64,000 nucleotides of DNA from Actinosynnema sp. ALI-1.44 (GTDB taxonomy: Bacteria > Actinomycetota > Actinomycetes > Mycobacteriales > Pseudonocardiaceae): positions 1 to 64,000 of the forward strand of contig NZ_MTQO01000039.1 in NCBI RefSeq assembly GCF_001984155.1, read 5' to 3'. A program made the translations under genes and the position numbers. Every line of letters starts with the position of its first letter. The stretch's first letter is position 1. Shown in pieces: positions 16,962 to 26,073 of the stretch. A model generated the notes under the pieces. The model was given only the letters and a program-made list of their open reading frames with translations, ran no database searches and was not told the DNA's origin.

Positions 16962-18212
16962 ATGCGCGTGTTGATGTTGTCTTGGGAGTACCCGCCGGTG
17001 GTGGTCGGCGGACTGGGCAGACACGTGTACGCGCTGGCCAAGCACATGTCCGACGCGGGACACGACGTCGTCGTGCTGTGCCGCGAACAGGCGGGCACCG
17101 ACGTGACCACGCACCCGACGTCCGACGAGGTGGTCGAGGGTGTTCGGGTGATCCGGGTCGCCGAGGACCCGCCGCACCTGGTGTTCGAGCGCGACCTGGT
17201 GGCGTGGACGCTCGCGATGGGGCACGCCATGGTCCGTGCGGGCCTCGCCCTGCTCAAGGACTGGCGACCGGACGTCATCCACGCGCACGACTGGCTGGTG
17301 ACGCACCCGGCCGTGGCGCTGGCCGAGGAAACCGGCAAGCCACTGGTGGCCACGATCCACGCCACCGAGGCCGGGCGGCACAGCGGCTGGCTGTCCCAAC
17401 CCCTGAACCAGCAGGTCCATTCGGTGGAATGGTGGCTGGCCAACCGGGCCGACGCGCTGGTGACGTGTTCCGCGGCGATGCGCGCCGAGGTGGCGCACCT
17501 GTTCGAGGTCGACCCGGCGGACATCACCGTGATCCACAACGGGATCGAGCCACGGCCGTGGCGCGTGCCCACGGCGACCGTGCGCGCCACGCACGAGCAG
17601 TACAGCCCCGGCGGCGGCCCGATGCTGCTGTTCTTCGGGCGTCTGGAGTGGGAGAAGGGCGTCCAGGACCTGGTCGCCGCGTTGCCCCGGATCCGTCGTT
17701 CACACCCCGGCACACGACTCGTCGTCGCCGGGAAGGGCCGTCACGCGGCTGAGCTCGTGAAGGACGCGCGCAAGGCGCGTGTGCTGCGCTCTGTCGATTT
17801 CGTTGGACACCTGTCGGACCGTCAGCTCGCCGCCGCCCTTGCCGCCGCTGACGTGGTTGTCCTGCCCAGCCGCTACGAGCCGTTCGGGATCGTCGCCCTG
17901 GAAGCGGCGGCTGCCGGTGCGCCTCTCGTCGCCTCCACAGCGGGTGGACTGGGCGAGGTCGTGGTGCACGGCGAAACCGGGCTGTCGTTCGCCCCCGGCG
18001 ACGTGGAGGGCATCACGGCGTCGGTGCGGGCCGTGCTGGACGACCCGGCAGCCGCCAAACGCCGGACTCGTGCGGCCAAGGCACGGCTCACGAGCGACTT
18101 CGACTGGGCCACGATCGCGGCCGCCACCATCGACGTCTACCGCCGCGCGCGGGTGGCGAACCACGAGCCCCTCGGCCGCCCGAAGATCGCCACCGGCAAC
18201 GCGTTCATCTGA
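16962..18212 (+). CDS. GT4 alpha-glucan glycosyltransferase (Rv3032-like), 416 aa
   Basis: Glycosyltransferase with two Rossmann domains. It shows the donor-domain glycine loop WEYPPVVVGGLGRHV at residues 8-22, HAHDWLV, FFGRLEWEKGVQDLV, and the EX7E motif in SRYEPFGIVALEA. Rv3032 of M. tuberculosis elongates alpha-1,4-glucan of MGLP and contributes to glycogen; this gene matches it in length and neighbours. It starts at ATG 16962, 37 nt past the GH57 stop, and ends at a family A hairpin. Donor identity (UDP- or ADP-glucose) is not decided. Confidence 0.9.
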   Translation: MRVLMLSWEYPPVVVGGLGRHVYALAKHMSDAGHDVVVLCREQAGTDVTTHPTSDEVVEGVRVIRVAEDPPHLVFERDLVAWTLAMGHAMVRAGLALLKDWRPDVIHAHDWLVTHPAVALAEETGKPLVATIHATEAGRHSGWLSQPLNQQVHSVEWWLANRADALVTCSAAMRAEVAHLFEVDPADITVIHNGIEPRPWRVPTATVRATHEQYSPGGGPMLLFFGRLEWEKGVQDLVAALPRIRRSHPGTRLVVAGKGRHAAELVKDARKARVLRSVDFVGHLSDRQLAAALAAADVVVLPSRYEPFGIVALEAAAAGAPLVASTAGGLGEVVVHGETGLSFAPGDVEGITASVRAVLDDPAAAKRRTRAAKARLTSDFDWATIAAATIDVYRRARVANHEPLGRPKIATGNAFI

Positions 18213-18220
18213 CGCTCGTC

Positions 18221-18279
18221 TTGGCAACCAATGTGGCCTTCGTAGCGTTCTTCGCAACGAAGGCCACATTGGTTGCCAA
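18221..18279. terminator. Long hairpin between convergent genes, repeat family A copy 2
   Basis: 27-nt arms at 18221-18247 and 18253-18279 pair with one mismatch, and an A-run follows on the plus strand. The arm core GCAACCAATGTGGCCTTCG is shared with the hairpins at 7267 and 56122. It lies between the GT4 gene (plus) and the acyltransferase (minus), so it can terminate both. Confidence 0.85.
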
Positions 18280-18291
18280 AAAACTGGGGGG

Positions 18292-19047
18292 TTAGGCGTC
18301 GTCGAGGATTTTCTGGACGGCTTCGCGGGCCTTGCGGTCCATGTCCGCGATCGCCGCGCGGCGCTCGGCCTTGGCCTCGTAGTCCGCGAGCCGGTCGCGC
18401 ACGACCTTCGCCGGGGTGCCCACCGCGATCGCGTAGTCCGGGATCTGGCCGCGGACCACCGAATGCGCGCCCAGCACGCAGCCACGGCCGATCCTGGTGC
18501 CCTTCAGCACGGACACCTTCGTACCGATCCACGTGTCCGGGCCGATCCGGACCGGGGACTTCACGATCCCCTGGTCCTTGATGGGCATGTGGATGTCGTC
18601 GACGACGTGGTCGAAGTCGCAGATGTACACCCAGTCGGCGACCAGCGACGCGTCACCGAACTCGATGTCGAGGTAGCAGTTGACCACGTTGGCGCGGCCG
18701 AACACGGCCTTGTCGCCGATCCGCAGGGAGCCCTCGTGGCAGCGGATGGCGTTGCCGTCGCCGATGTGCACCCAGCGGCCGATCTCCATCCGGCCGTAGC
18801 CCGGGCGGCAGTGGATCTCCACGTTCTTGCCGAGGAACACCATGCCGCGCAGGATGATGTGCGGGTTGAGCAGCCGGAACTTCAGCAGCCGGTAGTAGCG
18901 GACCAGGTACCAGGGCGTGTAGGCCCGGTTGCGCACCACCCAGCGCAGCGAGTCCACGGTGAGGAATCTGGCCTGCTGCGGGTCGCGTCGCACGCGCCAC
19001 CAGCCGCGTGCCCGCGCGGCCAACGGCGAACCCCACATCGAAGTCAT
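18292..19047 (-). CDS. Left-handed beta-helix acyltransferase (Rv3034c-like), 251 aa
   Basis: Hexapeptide-repeat acyltransferase. Repeats run from about residue 80 (GKNVEIHCRPGYGRMEIG, RWVHIGDGNAI) to the core RIGPDTWIGTKVSVLKGTRIG and GAHSVVRGQIPDYAIAVGTPAKVVRDR. Such enzymes transfer acetyl or other acyl groups from CoA to sugars. In mycobacteria the counterpart next to Rv3032 is proposed to acylate MGLP; here it lies convergent to the GT4 gene. ATG 19047 is preferred over a TTG three codons upstream (19056) and an ATG three codons downstream (19038). Confidence 0.86.
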   Translation of the reverse strand: MTSMWGSPLAARARGWWRVRRDPQQARFLTVDSLRWVVRNRAYTPWYLVRYYRLLKFRLLNPHIILRGMVFLGKNVEIHCRPGYGRMEIGRWVHIGDGNAIRCHEGSLRIGDKAVFGRANVVNCYLDIEFGDASLVADWVYICDFDHVVDDIHMPIKDQGIVKSPVRIGPDTWIGTKVSVLKGTRIGRGCVLGAHSVVRGQIPDYAIAVGTPAKVVRDRLADYEAKAERRAAIADMDRKAREAVQKILDDA

Positions 19048-19108
19048 GCCTGACAACGTAGATGACCATACCGGCGCTCACCGCACAGCCCTGTCGCCGA
19101 AGTCACTC

Positions 19109-21565
19109 TCAGATGACATCCACTGTGCAGAAGATCCGGAGGTTCTCGGCCGCGGCCTTCGTCGCCGGGTGGGCCGCGCCCAGGCTCCTGCGCAGGCTCG
19201 TCACGCTGCTGCGCTGCAACTCGGCGGACTCGTCCAACTGGCCGAGGCCACGCAGGTGCAGCGCGAGGTTCGTGGCGACGGCGTCGATGTGCGGGTGGTC
19301 GTCAGGCAGGACGCGCTGCGACCGTTCCAGGGTGTCCCGGCCGAGGTCGCGGGCCGCCGCGTATTGCCCCGCCCTGGCCAGGTCGTTGGCCAGGTTGGCC
19401 GCGCACACCAGGCTGAACGGGTGGTCGTCGCCGAGTGCCGCGCGCATCCGGTTCATCGCCTTCTCGTTCAGGCCGCGCGCGGTGGACAACTCGCCGAGGA
19501 CGTGCAGCGTCACGGCCAGGTTCGTCGCCGCGGCGAGTGTGAACGGGTGGTACTGGCCCCACGTCCGCTGTCCCAACTGGTGGGCGTGCAGGCCCAGCCT
19601 GCGGGCTTCCTCGAGGCGGCCGAGCGCGCGCAGGGTCACCGCGACGTTCATGGCCGCGGCGATGGCCTCCGGACCGTCCTCGCCGTAGCGTCCGGTCAGT
19701 CCGTCCAACGCGACCTGGCCGAGCGGCAGCGCGTTCGCGGCGTCACCGGCCAGCCGCCGCGCGCTGGCGAGGGTCTTGGTGGCGTGCAACGTCATCGGGT
19801 GCCGGACGCCGCCGTGTTCCCGCGAGCGCAGGACCACGTCCTCCTGGACCTGGCAGGCCTCGAGCCAGCCGCCGCACGCGATCAGGTCGAGCGCGAGACT
19901 GTTCAAAGAGCACAGTGTGGCGCCGTGGTTCTCGCCCAGGACAACGACTTTACGGCGAGCTGTCCGCTCGTCGAGCTCACGCGCCGCTTCGAGACAACCG
20001 GACAGGCGCAGCGCAGCGGTGTACGTTCCCGCCGCGTCGAGGGTATCCGGGTCGTCCTCGCCGAACTTGCCGCGTGTGCGTTGGTAGGCGTCCTTCGCCC
20101 ACGCCAACGCGGCCTCGAACTGCCCTGCGGCACAAAGGTCTTCGGCCAGTGACCGGATCGACAGGATCGTGTCCTCGTCGTCGGCGCCGAGGTGCTCACG
20201 GGCACGCACCACGGTGAACTCGCCGATCCTCGCGGCTTCTTCCGGCTGACCGGCCAGACGCGTCGTCCTCGCCAGCCACCGCGACGCGACCAACGCGTCC
20301 CTCGTGGTTTCCCGCCAACGCTCCACCAGGCCGGCCGCGAGCGCCCGCGCGTCCGCGGGATCGCCCCAGGTGGCCAGGAACGCGACGGTGTTGATCGCGA
20401 GACGCCGGATCCTCGGGTCCGCGGAGGCGATCGCGTCGCTGGCGAGCACGTGCGGCAGCAGATCCGCGTACCTGGACCAGTTGCCGGCTTCGCACGGGTT
20501 GCCGGGGTCCGCGCTCGCCAGCACCAGCTGGGCGTCCAGGCGCAGCTCTTCGGCGGGTTCCGGGCGGTACGTCAACCGGAAGGTGTCGGTGCGGTGGTCG
20601 ACTTCGGCCAGTCCGGTCGAGGTGAGCTGGCGGATCGCCCGGCCGAGCAGCACCGGGTCGCGCAACACCGTCGCCGCGAAGCCCGGCAGGGACGGCAGGT
20701 CCGGCGCACCCGCGAACACGCCGCGCGAGATGGGCCCGTCGGCGAAGAAGGCACAGATCCTGACCAGGTCCGTGATCTGTTCGGGGTCCGGTTGTCTTCG
20801 TGGCCACGGCACGTCGACGGCGTCACGCGCCGGAGTTCGCGCGGTGACGAGGACCTGCCCCGGCCCGGCAGGCAGGAACGGCCGGACGTCGTCCACCCGG
20901 CAGGCGTTGTCGAAGATCAACAGGCTGCCCCGCACGCGCAGCGCGTCGAGGACTGCGGGAACAGCCGCCCGCGCGCTGGGACCGACCGGCAGTTTCAGCC
21001 GGACCGCCAGTTTGACCAGCGCGATCCGGATCAGCGCCGGGTGCGCCGACGGGATCCACCACACCACCTCGTGCTCGGCGGCCCGCCGGTGGGCGTACTC
21101 CGCGGCCAGCTCGGACCGGCCCGCACCCGTCAGCACGGCAAGCGGATGATCCTCCACCGCCGCCAGCAGGTGCCCTGGCGCGGTGAACCCGGCGGCTCGC
21201 GGCGGCACGTCACCCCACACCACCGGCTGCTCGGTCCGCACGGCACCGCGCTGGCGCGGCACGTCACCACTGAGCATCTGCCGCGCCCACGAGACCGCCC
21301 GTGATCTCGGTTCCAGCTCGCTCAGAACGCGCAGGAACGTCGACAACGCGCCCGGGTGCTGGTCGCATGCGAGCAGGATGCTGTAGATGTGCTGGCGGGT
21401 CGATGGGAAATGCCTGACCTGCAAGGGCAGGCCGAGGTACTGCCCGACCAGGTCGAGGCACAGGCCCCGGCCGACCGGGTCGCGCAGGATCTGCACCTGT
21501 TCGAGGGTTTCCACCACCGAGTGCCAGACATCACGCCGCCGTCCCAAACCAGCCAACGGCCACAC
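19109..21565 (-). CDS. EAD2-like / degenerate STAND NTPase / TPR protein, 818 aa
   Basis: Large multidomain protein resembling conflict-system and FxSxx-system TPR proteins. Residues ~15-98 look like effector-associated domain 2 (VVETLEQVQILRDPVGRGLC through FLRVLSELEPRSRAV). Residues ~128-330 resemble an NB-ARC/STAND ATPase. The P-loop is degenerate, LTGAGRSELA at 146-155, with Arg where Lys is expected; a Walker B-like LLIFDNA remains near 215-221. From ~400 to the end are tetratricopeptide repeats (GDDHPFSLVCAANLANDLARAG type). GTG 21565 has a strong GGAGGTG five nt upstream. It follows the cyclase-like gene by 46 nt in the same direction. Probably a sensor or adaptor; ATP hydrolysis is doubtful. 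Confidence 0.82.
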   Translation of the reverse strand: MWPLAGLGRRRDVWHSVVETLEQVQILRDPVGRGLCLDLVGQYLGLPLQVRHFPSTRQHIYSILLACDQHPGALSTFLRVLSELEPRSRAVSWARQMLSGDVPRQRGAVRTEQPVVWGDVPPRAAGFTAPGHLLAAVEDHPLAVLTGAGRSELAAEYAHRRAAEHEVVWWIPSAHPALIRIALVKLAVRLKLPVGPSARAAVPAVLDALRVRGSLLIFDNACRVDDVRPFLPAGPGQVLVTARTPARDAVDVPWPRRQPDPEQITDLVRICAFFADGPISRGVFAGAPDLPSLPGFAATVLRDPVLLGRAIRQLTSTGLAEVDHRTDTFRLTYRPEPAEELRLDAQLVLASADPGNPCEAGNWSRYADLLPHVLASDAIASADPRIRRLAINTVAFLATWGDPADARALAAGLVERWRETTRDALVASRWLARTTRLAGQPEEAARIGEFTVVRAREHLGADDEDTILSIRSLAEDLCAAGQFEAALAWAKDAYQRTRGKFGEDDPDTLDAAGTYTAALRLSGCLEAARELDERTARRKVVVLGENHGATLCSLNSLALDLIACGGWLEACQVQEDVVLRSREHGGVRHPMTLHATKTLASARRLAGDAANALPLGQVALDGLTGRYGEDGPEAIAAAMNVAVTLRALGRLEEARRLGLHAHQLGQRTWGQYHPFTLAAATNLAVTLHVLGELSTARGLNEKAMNRMRAALGDDHPFSLVCAANLANDLARAGQYAAARDLGRDTLERSQRVLPDDHPHIDAVATNLALHLRGLGQLDESAELQRSSVTSLRRSLGAAHPATKAAAENLRIFCTVDVI

Positions 21566-21611
21566 GGTCTCACCTCCGTGTCCTGTCCAGCACGCCCGAA
21601 TTGGGAATAGC

Positions 21612-22583
21612 TCAGTCGACCGAATCCGACAACAGCAGCCGCTCGATACCCTCCAATCGGCGTACTCCCCCGGAGTCGCCGTCCAGTTGGCGCACTGCCT
21701 CGATCAAGTCGAACAATCCCTGCTCGTACAGCAGGCAGGTCCGCACGAGCGCGAAGACGTGCAGCCTGGTGGCCGCGTGGTACGGCACGGCGTTGGCGAT
21801 GTGCCGCGGCAGCATGTCGATCAACATCGTCCGCCCGGCGGCGTCGCGGACGAAGGGCAGTTCCAGCAAGGCGTCCACGATCTCCGACAGCGGCATCACC
21901 CGTGCGCGCGGCTGTTCGTGCCCCGCCATCGATGCCCGGGACATCGACGCCCGGGCCACCGGCACCTGGGCCACCGGGGCGTGGGCCATCGACGCCTGGG
22001 ACGCGGGCGAGTGGGCGACGTCCGGCAACCGCAGCCACGCCACCGTGTGCGTCTGCTTCACCGACACGGCGATCCGCTGGTAGGAAGCCGGATCCGCGGC
22101 GGGATCCTGTTCGATCACGTCGCGGTAGAACTCGTCCGACGCGATCAGCGCGAGCAGCCCGCCGCTGTCGGCGAGCGCCGACTTGGCCTGACCGGCGTCC
22201 AGCAGCCGGAACGTCAGGTTCACCGCGTGGCTGACGACTCCCTCGGAGTCCGCGTAGACCTCGCCGTGGTGTAACGCGACCCGCAACTGCACGCGGGCTT
22301 CGGCCGCGTGCACCGAATTGTACCGGCGCAGCGCCGACAGCAGCCTGGTGTGCCACTGGTCGACCAGCCAGACCTTGGGGAAGTCTGCGGGGATGAGGAT
22401 CATCGCGCCGTCGCCGCGGTCCTCGTGGTAGAGCGCCTTCCACAGGATCCCGGCCTCGTCGAAGGCCGCTCTGAGCATGTCGTACAGGCCCTCGTGCACC
22501 GCCCGCAGGTGGATCATGGTGCGCATCGGGTCGGTGAAGGACGCGACGTCGACAGCGACGATCGCCCGGTGTTGTGTGGTCAC
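21612..22583 (-). CDS. Class III nucleotide-cyclase-like protein with C-terminal EAD2-like domain, 323 aa
   Basis: The N-terminal ~185 residues resemble a class III cyclase catalytic domain. AVDVASFTD (Asp12) and HEDRGDGAMIL (Asp58) match the two metal aspartates, and HAVNLTFRLLD (Asn122, Arg126) matches the transition-state pair. A Pro/Ala/Met-rich repeat linker (about 189-222) connects to residues ~233-318, which look like effector-associated domain 2 (VDALLELPFVRDAAGRTMLI through DLIEAVRQLDG). Product and nucleotide preference are unknown. The EAD2-like domain presumably docks on the matching domain of the next gene. GTG 22583 has GGGGAG at suitable distance. Divergent from a Crp/Fnr regulator. 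Confidence 0.82.
   Translation of the reverse strand: MTTQHRAIVAVDVASFTDPMRTMIHLRAVHEGLYDMLRAAFDEAGILWKALYHEDRGDGAMILIPADFPKVWLVDQWHTRLLSALRRYNSVHAAEARVQLRVALHHGEVYADSEGVVSHAVNLTFRLLDAGQAKSALADSGGLLALIASDEFYRDVIEQDPAADPASYQRIAVSVKQTHTVAWLRLPDVAHSPASQASMAHAPVAQVPVARASMSRASMAGHEQPRARVMPLSEIVDALLELPFVRDAAGRTMLIDMLPRHIANAVPYHAATRLHVFALVRTCLLYEQGLFDLIEAVRQLDGDSGGVRRLEGIERLLLSDSVD
21928..22010. repeat. Degenerate in-frame short repeat (linker of the cyclase-like protein)
   Basis: Five to six imperfect units of about 15 nt, each of the type GCCCGGGACATCGAC / GCCTGGGCCACCGG, encode an Ala/Met/Ser/Val/Pro linker (MAHAPVAQVPVARASM). Units of 15 nt keep the frame, so copy number can change without breaking the protein. 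Confidence 0.6.
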
Positions 22584-22693
22584 GACGGATCACTCCCCAT
22601 AATCGCCGTCCCAAGCCGGTGGTGGGTCAACCATAGCTGGCAACCAGGTGAGAATTGTTGTGTTCCGCCTCGTCGGCTTGGCAACCTGAACTG

Positions 22694-23362
22694 GTGGACC
22701 CAAGCCCGGACAGCTTCTGGGGGAGCCTGGCGATCGCGGAACGCCACGCGCTCGAGCAGATCTCCGCTCGGCGCCAGTACGCTCCCGGTGAGTACCTGTG
22801 CCACGAGGGCGACCAGTCCAAGCACGCGTTCATCCTGATCTCCGGGCACGTCCAGGTGATCTACTACACCGAGGACGGCCGTGAGCTGGTGGTCGCGCTG
22901 CGCACCGCCGGCGACATCCTCGGCGAGGTGGCGGCGTTGCACGGACTGCCACGCACGGCCACCCTGCGCGCGCTCGACAAGGTCGAAGCGATCACCGTGC
23001 CCAGCAACAGGTTCACCCATCTGTGTCAAACACGGGCGAAACTGACGTGGACCCTGCTCGGCGTGCAGTACGCGCGATTCGGCGGGACGACCGGTCGCCA
23101 CGCCGAATACGGCGGCGGCAGCGCGAGCCAGCGCGTGTACACCCAACTCGCCCAGATGGCGGTGGAACACGACAAGGGCGACGGCAATCCGATCGAAATC
23201 AAAGCTGGGATGACCCAACAGCAACTCGCGGACAGCGCGGCCACATCACGCGAGTCGTACGCCAGGGCGCTGCGCGTCCTGCGTGACAAGGGCATCATCA
23301 GCACCGGGCGCAGCTGGATCCGCGTGCACAAGCTGGCGGAACTGCGCAGAATGGCCCGTTGA
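22694..23362 (+). CDS. Crp/Fnr family transcriptional regulator, 222 aa
   Basis: The N-terminal cyclic-nucleotide-binding fold (about residues 15-125) includes RQYAPGEYLCHEGDQSKHAFILISGHVQV and DILGEVAALHGLPRTATLRAL, a phosphate-binding-cassette-like segment. The C-terminal winged helix has GMTQQQLADSAATSRESYARALRVLRDKGII near 172-202. It therefore could respond to a cyclic nucleotide. GTG 22694 is preferred over a TTG at 22655; neither has a strong ribosome site. It is divergent from the cyclase-like gene over 110 bp that carries an 8-bp inverted repeat (22611-22618/22674-22681). A perfect palindrome just downstream of its stop is a possible target. Confidence 0.88.
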   Translation: MDPSPDSFWGSLAIAERHALEQISARRQYAPGEYLCHEGDQSKHAFILISGHVQVIYYTEDGRELVVALRTAGDILGEVAALHGLPRTATLRALDKVEAITVPSNRFTHLCQTRAKLTWTLLGVQYARFGGTTGRHAEYGGGSASQRVYTQLAQMAVEHDKGDGNPIEIKAGMTQQQLADSAATSRESYARALRVLRDKGIISTGRSWIRVHKLAELRRMAR

Positions 23363-23366
23363 GCCC

Positions 23367-23388
23367 CTCTGTGTCAGCTGACACAGAG
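23367..23388. promoter_or_regulatory. Perfect 22-bp palindrome resembling a Crp-type site
   Basis: The core TGTGTCAGCTGACACA matches the TGTGA-N6-TCACA pattern of Crp/GlxR-type sites at 8 of 10 half-site positions, and symmetry extends to CTCTG/CAGAG. It begins 4 nt after the Crp/Fnr gene stop and lies about 53 bp before the small membrane protein start. Best read as an operator for that gene; a terminator is less likely because there is no loop or T-run. Confidence 0.55.
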
Positions 23389-23441
23389 AATCCGCGCCAT
23401 TCCGGGTTTCATTTCACTACGAGACCCGAGGAGGGGGCGCA

Positions 23442-23699
23442 ATGGACCCGTTTCTTCCAGCTCCGGACCCAGGCCGGTGGCGCCGCGGATTCTTCGCCGC
23501 GTGCATCGCGATCCCGTTCACGGCCATGCAGATCTGGGCGATCACGGTGGTGCTGAGCACCGCGACCATCGAAGGCGCCGCCGGGCTCGCTTTCCTGTTG
23601 GCGGTCGGCGGATCGGCGGTGGCCGTGGTCGACGGTTGGCGGTGGGCGTGGCGGCTCGGCCGCAACTCGGCCGAAGGAGTACCCGAACCAGCGCGGTGA
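23442..23699 (+). CDS. Small membrane protein, 85 aa
   Basis: Two predicted transmembrane helices (about residues 17-39, FFAACIAIPFTAMQIWAITVVL, and 44-66, EGAAGLAFLLAVGGSAVAVV) are followed by a short charged tail. No family recognised. ATG 23442 has a GAGGAGGGGG ribosome site. It lies downstream of the Crp/Fnr regulator and the palindrome at 23367-23388, so it may be controlled by that regulator and belong to the cyclase/STAND cassette. Confidence 0.7.
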   Translation: MDPFLPAPDPGRWRRGFFAACIAIPFTAMQIWAITVVLSTATIEGAAGLAFLLAVGGSAVAVVDGWRWAWRLGRNSAEGVPEPAR

Positions 23700-23822
23700 C
23701 GCGCCCGTGGTGAAGAGCAGGACCGTCGACCCGAGGGGGGCCGACGGTCCCGCTACCCCCGGTCATCAGTGAGCGAGCAGGCAAGGTAGCGGTGGGCTCA
23801 CCGGCAGTTCTACCGCCATTCA

Positions 23823-23896
23823 GGTCACTCGCGTCGGGGGCGAGTGACCATCTGCGTCTCGTCGGCGGGGCGCGGGGCTGACACCGCCCCGCCGAC
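23823..23896. terminator. Two adjacent hairpins between convergent genes
   Basis: First stem: GGTCACTCG (23823-23831) with CGAGTGACC (23841-23849), 9 bp perfect. Second stem: GTCGGCGGGGCG (23861-23872) with CGCCCCGCCGAC (23885-23896), 12 bp perfect. They lie between the plus-strand small membrane gene and the minus-strand gene ending at 23956, and so can stop transcription from both sides. Confidence 0.7.
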
Positions 23897-23955
23897 GAGG
23901 CAGACCACCGGTTCCCGGCGCGATATCGCTGGACGCGCGATCGCGGACGTGACCA

Positions 23956-25116
23956 CTAGGTGCGCTCCGCCTGGCACAGCAAAGCTGTCGGGGTGGTCCC
24001 GATTCTGGTCAGCACCACCGTCGCCTCCTGGTTTCCCTTGAGTTTCAGGCGGGGGCGCAGGGTGTTCGGGTCGACGTCCACGCCCCGCACCAGGATTTCC
24101 AGTCGGCCGACGCCTCGGTCCGCCAGCAGCCCGCGGAGCGATTTCTCGTTGTAGCGGCCGTGTTCCAGCACCCTGAACGCGCGGATCCCGGGCGGCGGGG
24201 TGTCCCCCGTCAGGTAGGCGATCCGGGGGTCCAGTTGGGCCAGACCGTGCCGTGCCGCGTAGTGCTGGACGAGGCCCGCGCGGACCACCGCGCCGTCCGG
24301 GTCGACGATCCACTCCGCCGGCGCCGTCACCGGGCAGTCCGCCGGTTCCGCGTCCGTGACCGTCCACGACTCCATAGTGGACTTGATGACCGTCGCGCGG
24401 CGGGTCACGCCTTGCGTGGCAAGGGATCCGGTCCACAGACAGGCTTCCTTCACCTGCCCGTCCAACGACACCAGCTCGATCTCCCCCGCCCACGGGACGT
24501 CCTGCGGGTCGATCCCCGGCGCGCACTTCACCGCCATGTCCCGCGTCCGGTAGACCTCGGCCAGTTCGTTCAGCGGTGGGGTGAAATCCGCTGGACGCCA
24601 ACGCCTTCTGCCCGACGAGTCCCGCCTGGCCGGGTCGGCGAGGATGACCGCGTCCCGGGTGACCGGGCGCAGGGCGTCCGCTTGGACGACGTGCGCACCG
24701 GTGTTGTGCCGTGCCATCGCCAGCCTGACGAGGTCCAGGTCTGATCCGACCGCCACGTCCGCGACCGGCGTGAGGTGTTCCAGTTCCGTGCCGATGGAAC
24801 ACGTGACGTCGTGCACCGCACGCCCTTCGAAGCGGTGCGCCCTGTGCCTGGCCACCTGCCATGGCGTTGCCTGTTGCAGCGCGTCGTCGGTGAACAGCCA
24901 GTCCACCGGATCTTCTACTTTGGACTGGGCTTTTCGGCGCAGCAGCACGGTTTCCACCAGCATGGCGGCCTTCTCGCCTGCCGTTCGGCGTGCCGCGGCG
25001 ACGTCGGCGAGGTGGCTCGCCGACGTCAACGCCAGGGTGTCGATCTCCGCCAGCGCCGCGACACCCGCGTCCGACCGCAGGTAGGCGACGTCATCGACGG
25101 TGAAGCCGTATCCCAC
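23956..25116 (-). CDS. THUMP-like / class I methyltransferase-fold protein (Rv3037c-like), 386 aa
   Basis: The central Rossmann fold has VHDVTCSIGTELEHLTPVADVAVGSDLDLVRLAMARHN (SAM-site-like) and VILADPARRDSSGRRRW, followed by a C-terminal domain with GQVKEACLWTGSLA and RAFRVLEHGRYNEKSLRGLLADRGVGRLEILVRGVDVD, as in actinobacterial THUMP-like-domain proteins. Its mycobacterial counterpart lies in the MGLP region, so a role in glucan methylation has been discussed, while the fold also fits RNA modification. It is last in a leftward run behind a second methyltransferase, whose stop is 3 nt upstream of its start. Confidence 0.8.
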   Translation of the reverse strand: MGYGFTVDDVAYLRSDAGVAALAEIDTLALTSASHLADVAAARRTAGEKAAMLVETVLLRRKAQSKVEDPVDWLFTDDALQQATPWQVARHRAHRFEGRAVHDVTCSIGTELEHLTPVADVAVGSDLDLVRLAMARHNTGAHVVQADALRPVTRDAVILADPARRDSSGRRRWRPADFTPPLNELAEVYRTRDMAVKCAPGIDPQDVPWAGEIELVSLDGQVKEACLWTGSLATQGVTRRATVIKSTMESWTVTDAEPADCPVTAPAEWIVDPDGAVVRAGLVQHYAARHGLAQLDPRIAYLTGDTPPPGIRAFRVLEHGRYNEKSLRGLLADRGVGRLEILVRGVDVDPNTLRPRLKLKGNQEATVVLTRIGTTPTALLCQAERT

Positions 25117-25119
25117 GGG

Positions 25120-26073
25120 TCACGGCTTGGTGCCGGTGATCATCACGTTGTAGAACAGCTCGCGCGGCGCGATCCCGCGCAGGATGTTCTCGTCGACCCA
25201 GGACAGGCGCTGCCAGGCCCGGTAGGCGAACATCCGCCAGCCGAAGGTCAGCTTCTCCTGCGGCACAGCGGCCTCGAAGGTCCGCACCGGCCAGCCGAAC
25301 AGGGCCGCGGCCAGCTCCTCGGTCTTCGCCTTGACGTTCGCGCCGCCCGCGTCCCGCACCAGCTGCTCCAACTCGGTCGGGTCGAAGGTGTGCAGGTCCA
25401 CGACCGCTTCCAGCGCCGCGGCCCGGGAGGACTCGTCCAGTTCCTCCTGCGGCCTGCGCCACGAGTTCAGCGCGGGCAGCTTCGTGACGTTCGTGGTCAG
25501 CCACCAGGTGAGCTGGCCGAGTTTGCGGGCGTAGGTGTTGCCGATCTTCGTCGGCTCACCGGCGAACACGAACCGGCCGCCCGGCTTGAGCACGCGCAGC
25601 ACCTCGCGGAACGCCGTCGGCAGGTCCGGGATGTGGTGCAGTACCGCGTGCCCGACGACCAGGTCGAAGCTGTCGTCGTCGTACGGGATCCGCTCCGCGT
25701 CGGCGACACGGCCGTCCACGTCCAGGCCGAGGTTCCTGGCGTTGTTCAGCGCCACCTGCACCATTCCCGGCGACAGGTCGGTGACCGAGCCCTTCTTGAT
25801 CACGCCGCCCTGCATCAGGTTGAGCAGGAAGAAACCCGTGCCGCACCCCAGTTCCAGCGCTGTCTCGTACGGCCAGCCGTCCTTGCCCGCCACGGACTCG
25901 AACCGGCCCGTCGCGTACTCGATGCAGCGTTCGTCGTACGAGATCGACCACTTCTCGTCGTACGTGCCCGCTTCCCAGTCGTGGTAGAGCACGTTCGCGA
26001 GCTTCGGGTCCTGCCAGGCCGCCTCGACCTCTTCGGCCGTCGCGTGCGGGTTGGGCGCTGGGTCACTTGCCAC
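25120..26073 (-). CDS. Class I SAM-dependent methyltransferase (Rv3038c-like), 317 aa
   Basis: The methyltransferase domain spans about residues 60-190: ALELGCGTGFFLLNLMQGGV (motif I), VTDLSPGMV, the VVGHAVLHHIPDLPTAFREVLRVLKPGGRFVFAGEP block. A C-terminal ~110 residues of unknown fold (TFGWRMFAYRAWQRLSWVDENILRGI) are conserved in actinobacteria as far as I recall. GTG 26073 lies inside the end of the enoyl-CoA hydratase gene (11-bp overlap), so the genes are coupled. Substrate unknown; it occupies the same place in mycobacteria next to echA17. Confidence 0.86.
   Translation of the reverse strand: MASDPAPNPHATAEEVEAAWQDPKLANVLYHDWEAGTYDEKWSISYDERCIEYATGRFESVAGKDGWPYETALELGCGTGFFLLNLMQGGVIKKGSVTDLSPGMVQVALNNARNLGLDVDGRVADAERIPYDDDSFDLVVGHAVLHHIPDLPTAFREVLRVLKPGGRFVFAGEPTKIGNTYARKLGQLTWWLTTNVTKLPALNSWRRPQEELDESSRAAALEAVVDLHTFDPTELEQLVRDAGGANVKAKTEELAAALFGWPVRTFEAAVPQEKLTFGWRMFAYRAWQRLSWVDENILRGIAPRELFYNVMITGTKP

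Follow-up and report, generated by a model that had tools for sequence, protein, structure and literature searches.

We analysed a 64,000-nucleotide stretch of DNA from Actinosynnema sp. ALI-1.44 (contig NZ_MTQO01000039.1, positions 1 to 64,000; referred to here as the window), which contains a four-gene cassette encoding a class III nucleotidyl cyclase-like protein, a STAND-like protein, a Crp/Fnr-type regulator and a small membrane protein. Judged by sequence comparison, the cassette is a collapsed VMAP (MoxR–vWA) ternary system and not a new kind of system. A preliminary description of this DNA had called the cassette undescribed. That label no longer fits, since the cassette appears to be a reduced VMAP ternary system, and the coupling of signalling domains through EADs had already been proposed by Kaur et al. 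2020 (PMC7159879). The parts that the description listed (cyclase-EAD2, EAD2-STAND-TPR, Crp/Fnr, palindrome and small membrane protein) are all present, and an open reading frame check found the four genes and the palindrome at the positions it had named. The features, given in amino acids (aa) or base pairs with the evidence for each, are as follows.

21612..22583, minus strand: class III nucleotidyl cyclase domain with C-terminal EAD2, 323 aa (PDB profile matches, Pfam, family alignment)
22026..22571, minus strand: cyclase domain, residues 5-186, with D12, D58, N122, R126 and E54 (family alignment, PDB alignment)
21651..21878, minus strand: EAD2 of the cyclase-side subfamily (Pfam, EAD2 tree)
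19109..21565, minus strand: EAD2–degenerate NB-ARC–TPR protein (the STAND-like protein), 818 aa (Pfam, NF040586)
21272..21514, minus strand: EAD2 of the VMAP-side subfamily (EAD2 tree)
20831..21193, minus strand: NB-ARC remnant, residues ~125-245, with an altered P-loop and ~90 aa missing after the P-loop (orthologue alignment)
22694..23362, plus strand: Crp/Fnr-type regulator, 222 aa (Pfam, codon scoring, structure-sequence alignment)
23367..23388, plus strand: perfect palindrome, 22 bp, CTCTGTGTCAGCTGACACAGAG, operator-like, 5' of the membrane-protein gene (sequence, conservation)
23442..23699, plus strand: 85-aa protein with two hydrophobic stretches, a recurring Crp partner
22584..22693, no strand: divergent cyclase/Crp promoter region; the best operator match upstream of Crp (260 nucleotides) has 4 mismatches
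23404..23427, plus strand: possible hairpin GGGTTTC...GAGACCC directly before the Shine-Dalgarno sequence of the membrane-protein gene (consensus fold, eight congeners)

In other genera, the cyclase gene is often the first of an operon encoding cyclase-EAD2, EAD2-VMAP, an AAA ATPase and a ~1400-aa SAV_2336/NB-ARC/TPR protein. One such operon in Amycolatopsis xylanica (L218:6903-15589) lies divergent from genes for a membrane protein and a Crp protein, and all pieces of the window cassette have counterparts there in equal order and orientation. Identities to the window are 48% for Crp, 59% for the membrane protein, 55% for the cyclase and 48% for its EAD2, and 51%, 47% and 46% for the VMAP EAD2, NB-ARC and TPR parts. 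Residues 11-99 of the STAND-like protein map to the VMAP EAD2 of this locus, and residues 111-244 and 266-816 map to the end of its large component, with ~3.9 kb between them. This is the single complete EAD2-type locus with Crp and membrane protein that we observed; by domain scan, L218 and L054 are complete relatives, and L220 is alike by gene order. Lentzea loci show a similar order, but with cyclase, EAD2 and VMAP merged in one gene.

Trees of the separate parts point the same way. In a TPR tree built from 45 of 61 non-redundant sequences, the window clade joins the large components of L218, L054 and L220 in a nine-sequence group with support of 100, and the EAD2 of the window-clade STAND-like proteins joins the VMAP EAD2 of L218 with support of 95. 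Six of the eight genomes sampled under the window's genus label have a VMAP-type EAD2 fused directly to the NB-ARC-TPR end. We infer that an internal deletion fused the start of a VMAP gene to the end of the large-component gene, although the STAND-like protein may instead have been put together from separate pieces. Among the eight window proteins scanned there is no VMAP-M or VMAP-C domain, EAD2 being all that remains of the VMAP protein, and no MoxR-type AAA ATPase; of the vWA component the window has the NB-ARC-TPR end only. A VMAP-M/VMAP-C protein occurs in L054, L089, L139 and L218, and an AAA_5 protein occupies the matching operon position in L054, L089 and L218. From operon position, and for the first of them also from Kaur et al., we infer that the AAA_5 protein is MoxR and that the SAV_2336-type large component is the vWA component of those authors; Pfam vWA is unmatched in the large components of L218 and L054, though SAV_2336_NTERM is present.

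The STAND-like protein carries an N-terminal EAD2 (PF19956, residues 18-98, E 9.3e-19, over the Pfam cut-off) and C-terminal TPRs, as the preliminary description had read this 818-aa neighbour of the cyclase. It scores 505 bits against NF040586 (FxSxx_TPR; cut-off 300), and its best stretch covers profile positions 249-827 without the N-terminal part of the profile. Pfam NB-ARC is unmatched at E ≤ 1, and the protein does not have the intact P-loop and GLPL/ARC region by which we recognise a STAND NTPase. When the six orthologues are compared with the large components of ternary systems, the first P-loop Gly is gone, as are ~90 aa that include the GDLPLA (GLPL-like) stretch. The degenerate P-loop reported earlier stands in part: the Arg-for-Lys change is real in the window and is found in G065, but the other four of the six orthologues retain Lys, and Arg was rejected on that ground as a defining trait of the protein. 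Scoring up to three candidates in each of 297 genomes of the family gave full-length matches in six, all within the window's genus label. When two candidates were scored in each of 345 genomes sampled across the class (E ≤ 1e-60), every listed match apart from the window's own began at query residue 218 or later.

A second EAD2 lies at residues 236-311 of the cyclase protein (PF19956, E 5.9e-24, over the Pfam cut-off). The claim that both partners bear EAD2 is confirmed by these matches, and the core component and the signalling enzyme of the adjacent gene together show the arrangement by which we define an EAD2-coupled pair. Simple like-like association is not supported, as the two EAD2s fall into two subfamilies. 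In a tree of 90 EAD2 domains, 46 from the cyclase side and 44 from the VMAP/STAND side, none was misplaced, with the side labels of two loci (L126 and L181) assigned after a first tree and the fused cyclase-EAD2-VMAP proteins placed on the VMAP side, likewise after that tree. The window cassette holds one EAD2 from either subfamily, cyclase-side and VMAP-side. According to Kaur et al. 2020 (PMC7159879), neighbouring genes tend to encode mutually close EADs, and our EAD2 tree runs opposite to that trend. Elsewhere in the same genome, contig C51 (locus L082) encodes two VMAP-size EAD2 proteins, with genes for a ~340-aa protein and a large component after each. Their EAD2s, the only domain scanned there, fall on the VMAP side of the tree, and these proteins are possible trans partners of the STAND-like protein.

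The cyclase domain itself is matched by nothing in a Pfam scan, which leaves EAD2 as the sole Pfam domain of the cyclase protein. A contig scan found no relatives with the single protein as query and 249 with an alignment as query, of which the best 80 were kept; 54 relatives drawn from these 80 loci, excluding one with a stop codon (L259), were combined with the window protein in a 55-sequence profile. Against PDB sequences this profile matched 3mr7 (E 1.6e-5), a natriuretic peptide receptor (3.2e-5) and 5d0g (5.9e-5). The five distinct sequences at E ≤ 1e-3 are class III cyclases throughout, and three represent a single natriuretic peptide receptor in different versions. Among 69 non-redundant domains, counted where the position is present, the metal and catalytic residues are invariant at D12 (63/63), D58 (68/68) and R126 (69/69), while position 122 is Asn in 43/69 and position 54 is Glu in 46/68. 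Profile matches and residue conservation thus bear out the earlier assignment of a class III cyclase-like domain with two metal Asp residues and an Asn/Arg pair. In the alignment to the receptor, E54 falls on the Glu of the guanylate cyclase motif. We take this position to be purine-selecting, with Glu selecting guanine; cyclic GMP as the product is a guess.

The cyclase query is matched in 134 of the 297 family genomes at E ≤ 1e-10, and 12 times in the window genome (11.7 Mb, 54 contigs) at E < 1e-12, window protein counted. Paralogues in that genome include two single-chain proteins, L071 (cyclase–NB-ARC–TPR, 1060 aa) and L074 (cyclase–nSTAND1–WD40, 1232 aa), and contig C45 holds a second, distant cyclase–Crp gene pair (L081). 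At L129, L130 and L175-L178, stand-alone cyclases of ~200 aa lie upstream of Crp, with Asp replacing Asn122; these form a separate, perhaps altered, subfamily.

The Crp/Fnr protein contains a cNMP-binding domain and a Crp helix-turn-helix (PF00027 and PF13545), and codon scoring favours its GTG start at 22694. Aligned to the catabolite activator structure 4i02, it keeps the GE, Arg and Thr/Thr pocket positions and the R-E...R residues of the recognition helix, positions which we take to be the nucleotide and DNA contacts of that protein. This agrees with the previous suggestion that the protein could in principle bind a cyclic nucleotide. The palindrome at 23367-23388 is perfect, and its core is the sole exact TGTGTC-N4-GACACA in the window genome, which points to a dedicated regulator and not to a global one; one-mismatch core sites number 9 vs 7 for a reversed control, the level expected by chance. 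An operator-like TGnG[TG]CAnnTGACnCA lies directly 3' of Crp with at most two mismatches in 46 of 50 loci (none in 35), a count that is descriptive because the choice of loci was based on similarity and manual picking, and the same loci served for deriving the consensus by eye. These loci span nine genus labels, with L180, L181, L182 and L183 as the exceptions; upstream of Crp, only one of the 50 (L127) has a site with at most two mismatches. The operator is also found in L218 and L222, neither used for the consensus, and its dyad centre lies 60-69 bp upstream of the ATG in all 15 loci measured. The palindrome that the preliminary description placed ahead of the membrane-protein gene is thus both perfect and conserved across loci. 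The 85-aa product of that gene shows two hydrophobic peaks, in keeping with a two-helix membrane protein; it has no Pfam match, and its single NCBIfam match, to an SdpB family, is sub-threshold (E 0.0057).

A survey of gene neighbourhoods showed that the genes for Crp, membrane protein and cyclase recur together under several genus labels. Of the 30 top-ranking Crp matches from the family sample, the window's among them, 28 have a membrane-protein gene within 1.5 kb and 23 a cyclase-domain gene; in the genome of the window, a random site would have a cyclase gene within that distance with a chance of ~0.4%. The 30 cannot be counted as independent, because the set contains many close relatives and one of the 23 cyclases is the decayed copy of G163. 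Cyclase and Crp genes are divergent in Kibdelosporangium, Lentzea, Kutzneria and Solihabitans, whereas the cyclase lies upstream of Crp and co-directional in the Amycolatopsis label g16 and downstream in g26. That the membrane protein is restricted to the cassette was ruled out by its recurrence with Crp elsewhere.

Among the eight congeners, Crp and the membrane protein are constant (the latter retained in 8/8), and the cyclase and STAND genes vary. In an unrooted tree of six flanking genes, G147 and G114 stand apart from the other six, and neither cyclase nor STAND is matched by tblastn (E ≤ 1e-3) in the 15-16 kb extracted from each; in G114, Crp directly adjoins the acetyltransferase gene that is the neighbour of STAND in the window. 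The single accessory block proposed earlier is not supported, as Crp and membrane protein stand without the other two genes in two congeners; the G+C content of the cassette (0.66-0.72, per kb) is indistinct from the flanks. Two further genomes, G093 (locus L125) and G163 (locus L126), retain STAND, Crp and membrane protein beside a ruined cyclase: a large deletion leaves 25 codons of the cyclase EAD2 end in the former, and the latter has an internal deletion and a broken frame. Two separate losses are the simplest account, because G131, the sister of G093, has an intact cyclase. In all six genomes that carry it, STAND reads through without an internal stop.

We estimated the ratio of nonsynonymous to synonymous substitution rates (dN/dS) for two within-clade pairs, window–G027 and G065–G131, given here in that order. 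Values are low for the EAD2 of the STAND-like protein (0.02, 0.11), the cyclase EAD2 (0.10, 0.19), the cyclase domain (0.17, 0.13), the NB-ARC remnant (0.22, 0.19), the TPRs (0.21, 0.19), Crp (0.18, 0.13) and the membrane protein (0.05, 0.06), and higher for the cyclase linker (0.95, 0.76). Overall, the preliminary description keeps its EAD2 pair, cyclase residues, Crp protein, linkage and operator, and loses novelty of kind, like-like pairing and the single block.

Based on these observations, we lean slightly towards a working collapsed ternary system, in which sensing by the TPRs would lead through EAD2 docking and a cyclic nucleotide to Crp and the membrane protein. The TPR array would bind a trigger, and the STAND-like protein would act as a scaffold, not as an ATP-driven switch, because its NB-ARC is broken. 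Its VMAP-side EAD2 would dock the cyclase-side EAD2 and so gather cyclase domains; class III cyclases work as dimers. The cyclase would then raise a 3',5'-cyclic nucleotide, perhaps cyclic GMP, which the divergently encoded Crp would bind. Acting at the single palindrome, Crp would change expression of the two-helix membrane protein, the presumed output; a toxic pore and a role in stress or at the envelope are equally likely functions for it.

Several observations weigh against this proposal. The branch that splits the two EAD2 subfamilies has bootstrap support of just 65, and a genome-wide regulon of the palindrome was sought in the window genome and not found. Viewed from the cyclase side, Crp lies within 2.5 kb in only 12 of 80 loci: 7 of the 36 with a TPR component within 9 kb downstream, a group that includes two collapsed Kibdelosporangium loci, and 5 of the 44 others. 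Crp and membrane protein occur with no adjacent cyclase in all sampled loci of labels g17 (3), g22 (5), g23 (3) and g32 (1), in 4 of 16 g8 loci, and, without cyclase or STAND, in G147 and G114. Two of six STAND-bearing genomes have lost the cyclase or carry a broken copy, with STAND, Crp and membrane protein intact, and residues 245-345 of the STAND-like protein are relaxed in one of the two pairs (dN/dS 0.17, 0.57). Finally, of the four products the membrane protein is under the strongest constraint (dN/dS 0.03-0.06 in five within-clade pairs), a pattern unlike that of a fast-changing conflict effector.

Some of these points suit another arrangement, in which Crp and the membrane protein form a stand-alone pair responding to the general cyclic nucleotide pool, and the cyclase and STAND genes are merely adjacent. 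The persistence of the pair in G147 and G114, the g17, g22, g23 and g32 loci, and an operator-like site found before the membrane-protein gene only would all be expected under it. Mere adjacency sits poorly, however, with a cyclase-domain gene near 23 of the 30 best Crp matches, far above the chance level, and with linkage that holds in divergent, upstream co-directional and downstream arrangements; on balance we consider this explanation unlikely.

The survival of STAND past cyclase loss indicates that it needs another EAD2 partner or another working mode. It could act in trans as a recruiter of other EAD2 proteins, or as a decoy or dominant-negative factor that competes for cyclases with VMAPs. 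The two VMAP-size EAD2 genes of C51, which lie on the VMAP side of the tree, and the two genomes with STAND and no intact local cyclase are in line with such a role. Yet in 4 of 6 genomes the gene immediately upstream of STAND encodes a cyclase with an EAD2 from the complementary subfamily, and we regard action in trans as improbable.

We find it similarly doubtful that the cassette is an abortive anti-phage defence, in which a cyclic nucleotide made upon infection switches on the membrane protein and the cell is killed. Parent systems were proposed to counter invaders (Kaur et al. 2020, PMC7159879), the cassette is analogous to Pycsar, and the cNMP-binding domain of Crp matches Pycsar effector models (1.4e-11 to 9.7e-8). 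The PADLOC results for the other proteins are unconvincing, as the cyclase has no PycC match at E ≤ 1 and a best match to PtuA at 0.04, and nothing at E ≤ 1 is found for the STAND-like or membrane protein. Transcription would presumably be slow for abortive infection, and a membrane protein so constrained and kept in 8/8 congeners does not fit such a role well. Least probable, and in our judgement very unlikely, is a decaying relic in which the STAND/cyclase pair is disappearing with little present function: two cyclase losses, an NB-ARC damaged in six orthologues and the relaxed stretch 245-345 would agree with it, but the EAD2s, cyclase domain and TPRs are under purifying selection and the STAND frame is stop-free in all six genomes.

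The collapsed ternary reading also places the cassette among known systems. In PMC7159879, the VMAP parent system, EAD2 and EAD2 cyclases are already described, the likeness being in the cyclase-EAD2 and NB-ARC-TPR components shared by the window and VMAP loci, and a CRP-like cNMP-recognising factor is sometimes linked to related stand-alone peptide-processing systems. The window differs from the ternary systems in having no VMAP core, AAA ATPase or SAV_2336 part, in bearing a VMAP-type EAD2 directly on NB-ARC-TPR, and in its Crp–operator–membrane protein arm. The STAND-like protein resembles the TPR protein of FxSxx-COOH systems (NF040586) in its 505-bit match and differs from it by its N-terminal EAD2; a general scan of eight cassette and neighbour proteins, not an aimed search, gave no radical-SAM match. 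Like Pycsar, the window combines a class III cyclase with a cNMP-binding protein and a membrane component, but its cyclase has no PycC match, its receptor is a Crp that binds DNA, and the membrane part forms a protein of its own; it is the window Crp, not the cyclase, that matches the PADLOC PycC model (1.2e-10), through its cNMP-binding part. The mycobacterial Rv0386 family (PMC4452763) likewise joins a class III cyclase to NB-ARC and a transcription output, in one polypeptide with a LuxR helix-turn-helix, whereas the window uses separate proteins, presumably joined by EAD2, and a Crp.

In a literature search that covered few subscription journals and no supplements, we found no description of a collapsed, VMAP-less EAD2-STAND–cyclase form, of two EAD2 subfamilies, or of a Crp–operator–membrane-protein arm. 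Tentatively, and with more doubt than confidence, we speculate that this arm may be a general, unrecognised output of STAND/VMAP-controlled cyclases in Pseudonocardiaceae, amounting to a transcription-wired, Pycsar-like circuit. Its most reduced form would be the Kibdelosporangium-group cassette, where a TPR scaffold with a dead NTPase would control the cyclase directly through the pairing of two dedicated EAD2 subfamilies, without VMAP, MoxR or vWA. The signal flow of the large VMAP ternary systems has been put forward on the basis of comparative genomics. The four-gene reduction keeps one EAD2 per subfamily, a cyclase, a dedicated receptor and a single operator-like site. With so few and such small proteins to handle, the proposed EAD2 coupling, as well as which cyclic nucleotide is made and what it acts on, come within reach of experiment. 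The gradation found in nature, from full locus to collapsed, cyclase-less, and Crp plus membrane protein alone, reveals which parts are dispensable.

Rfam returned nothing at gathering score within 18000-26000. The possible hairpin at 23404-23427, present in a consensus fold of eight congeners, may be an element of translational control.

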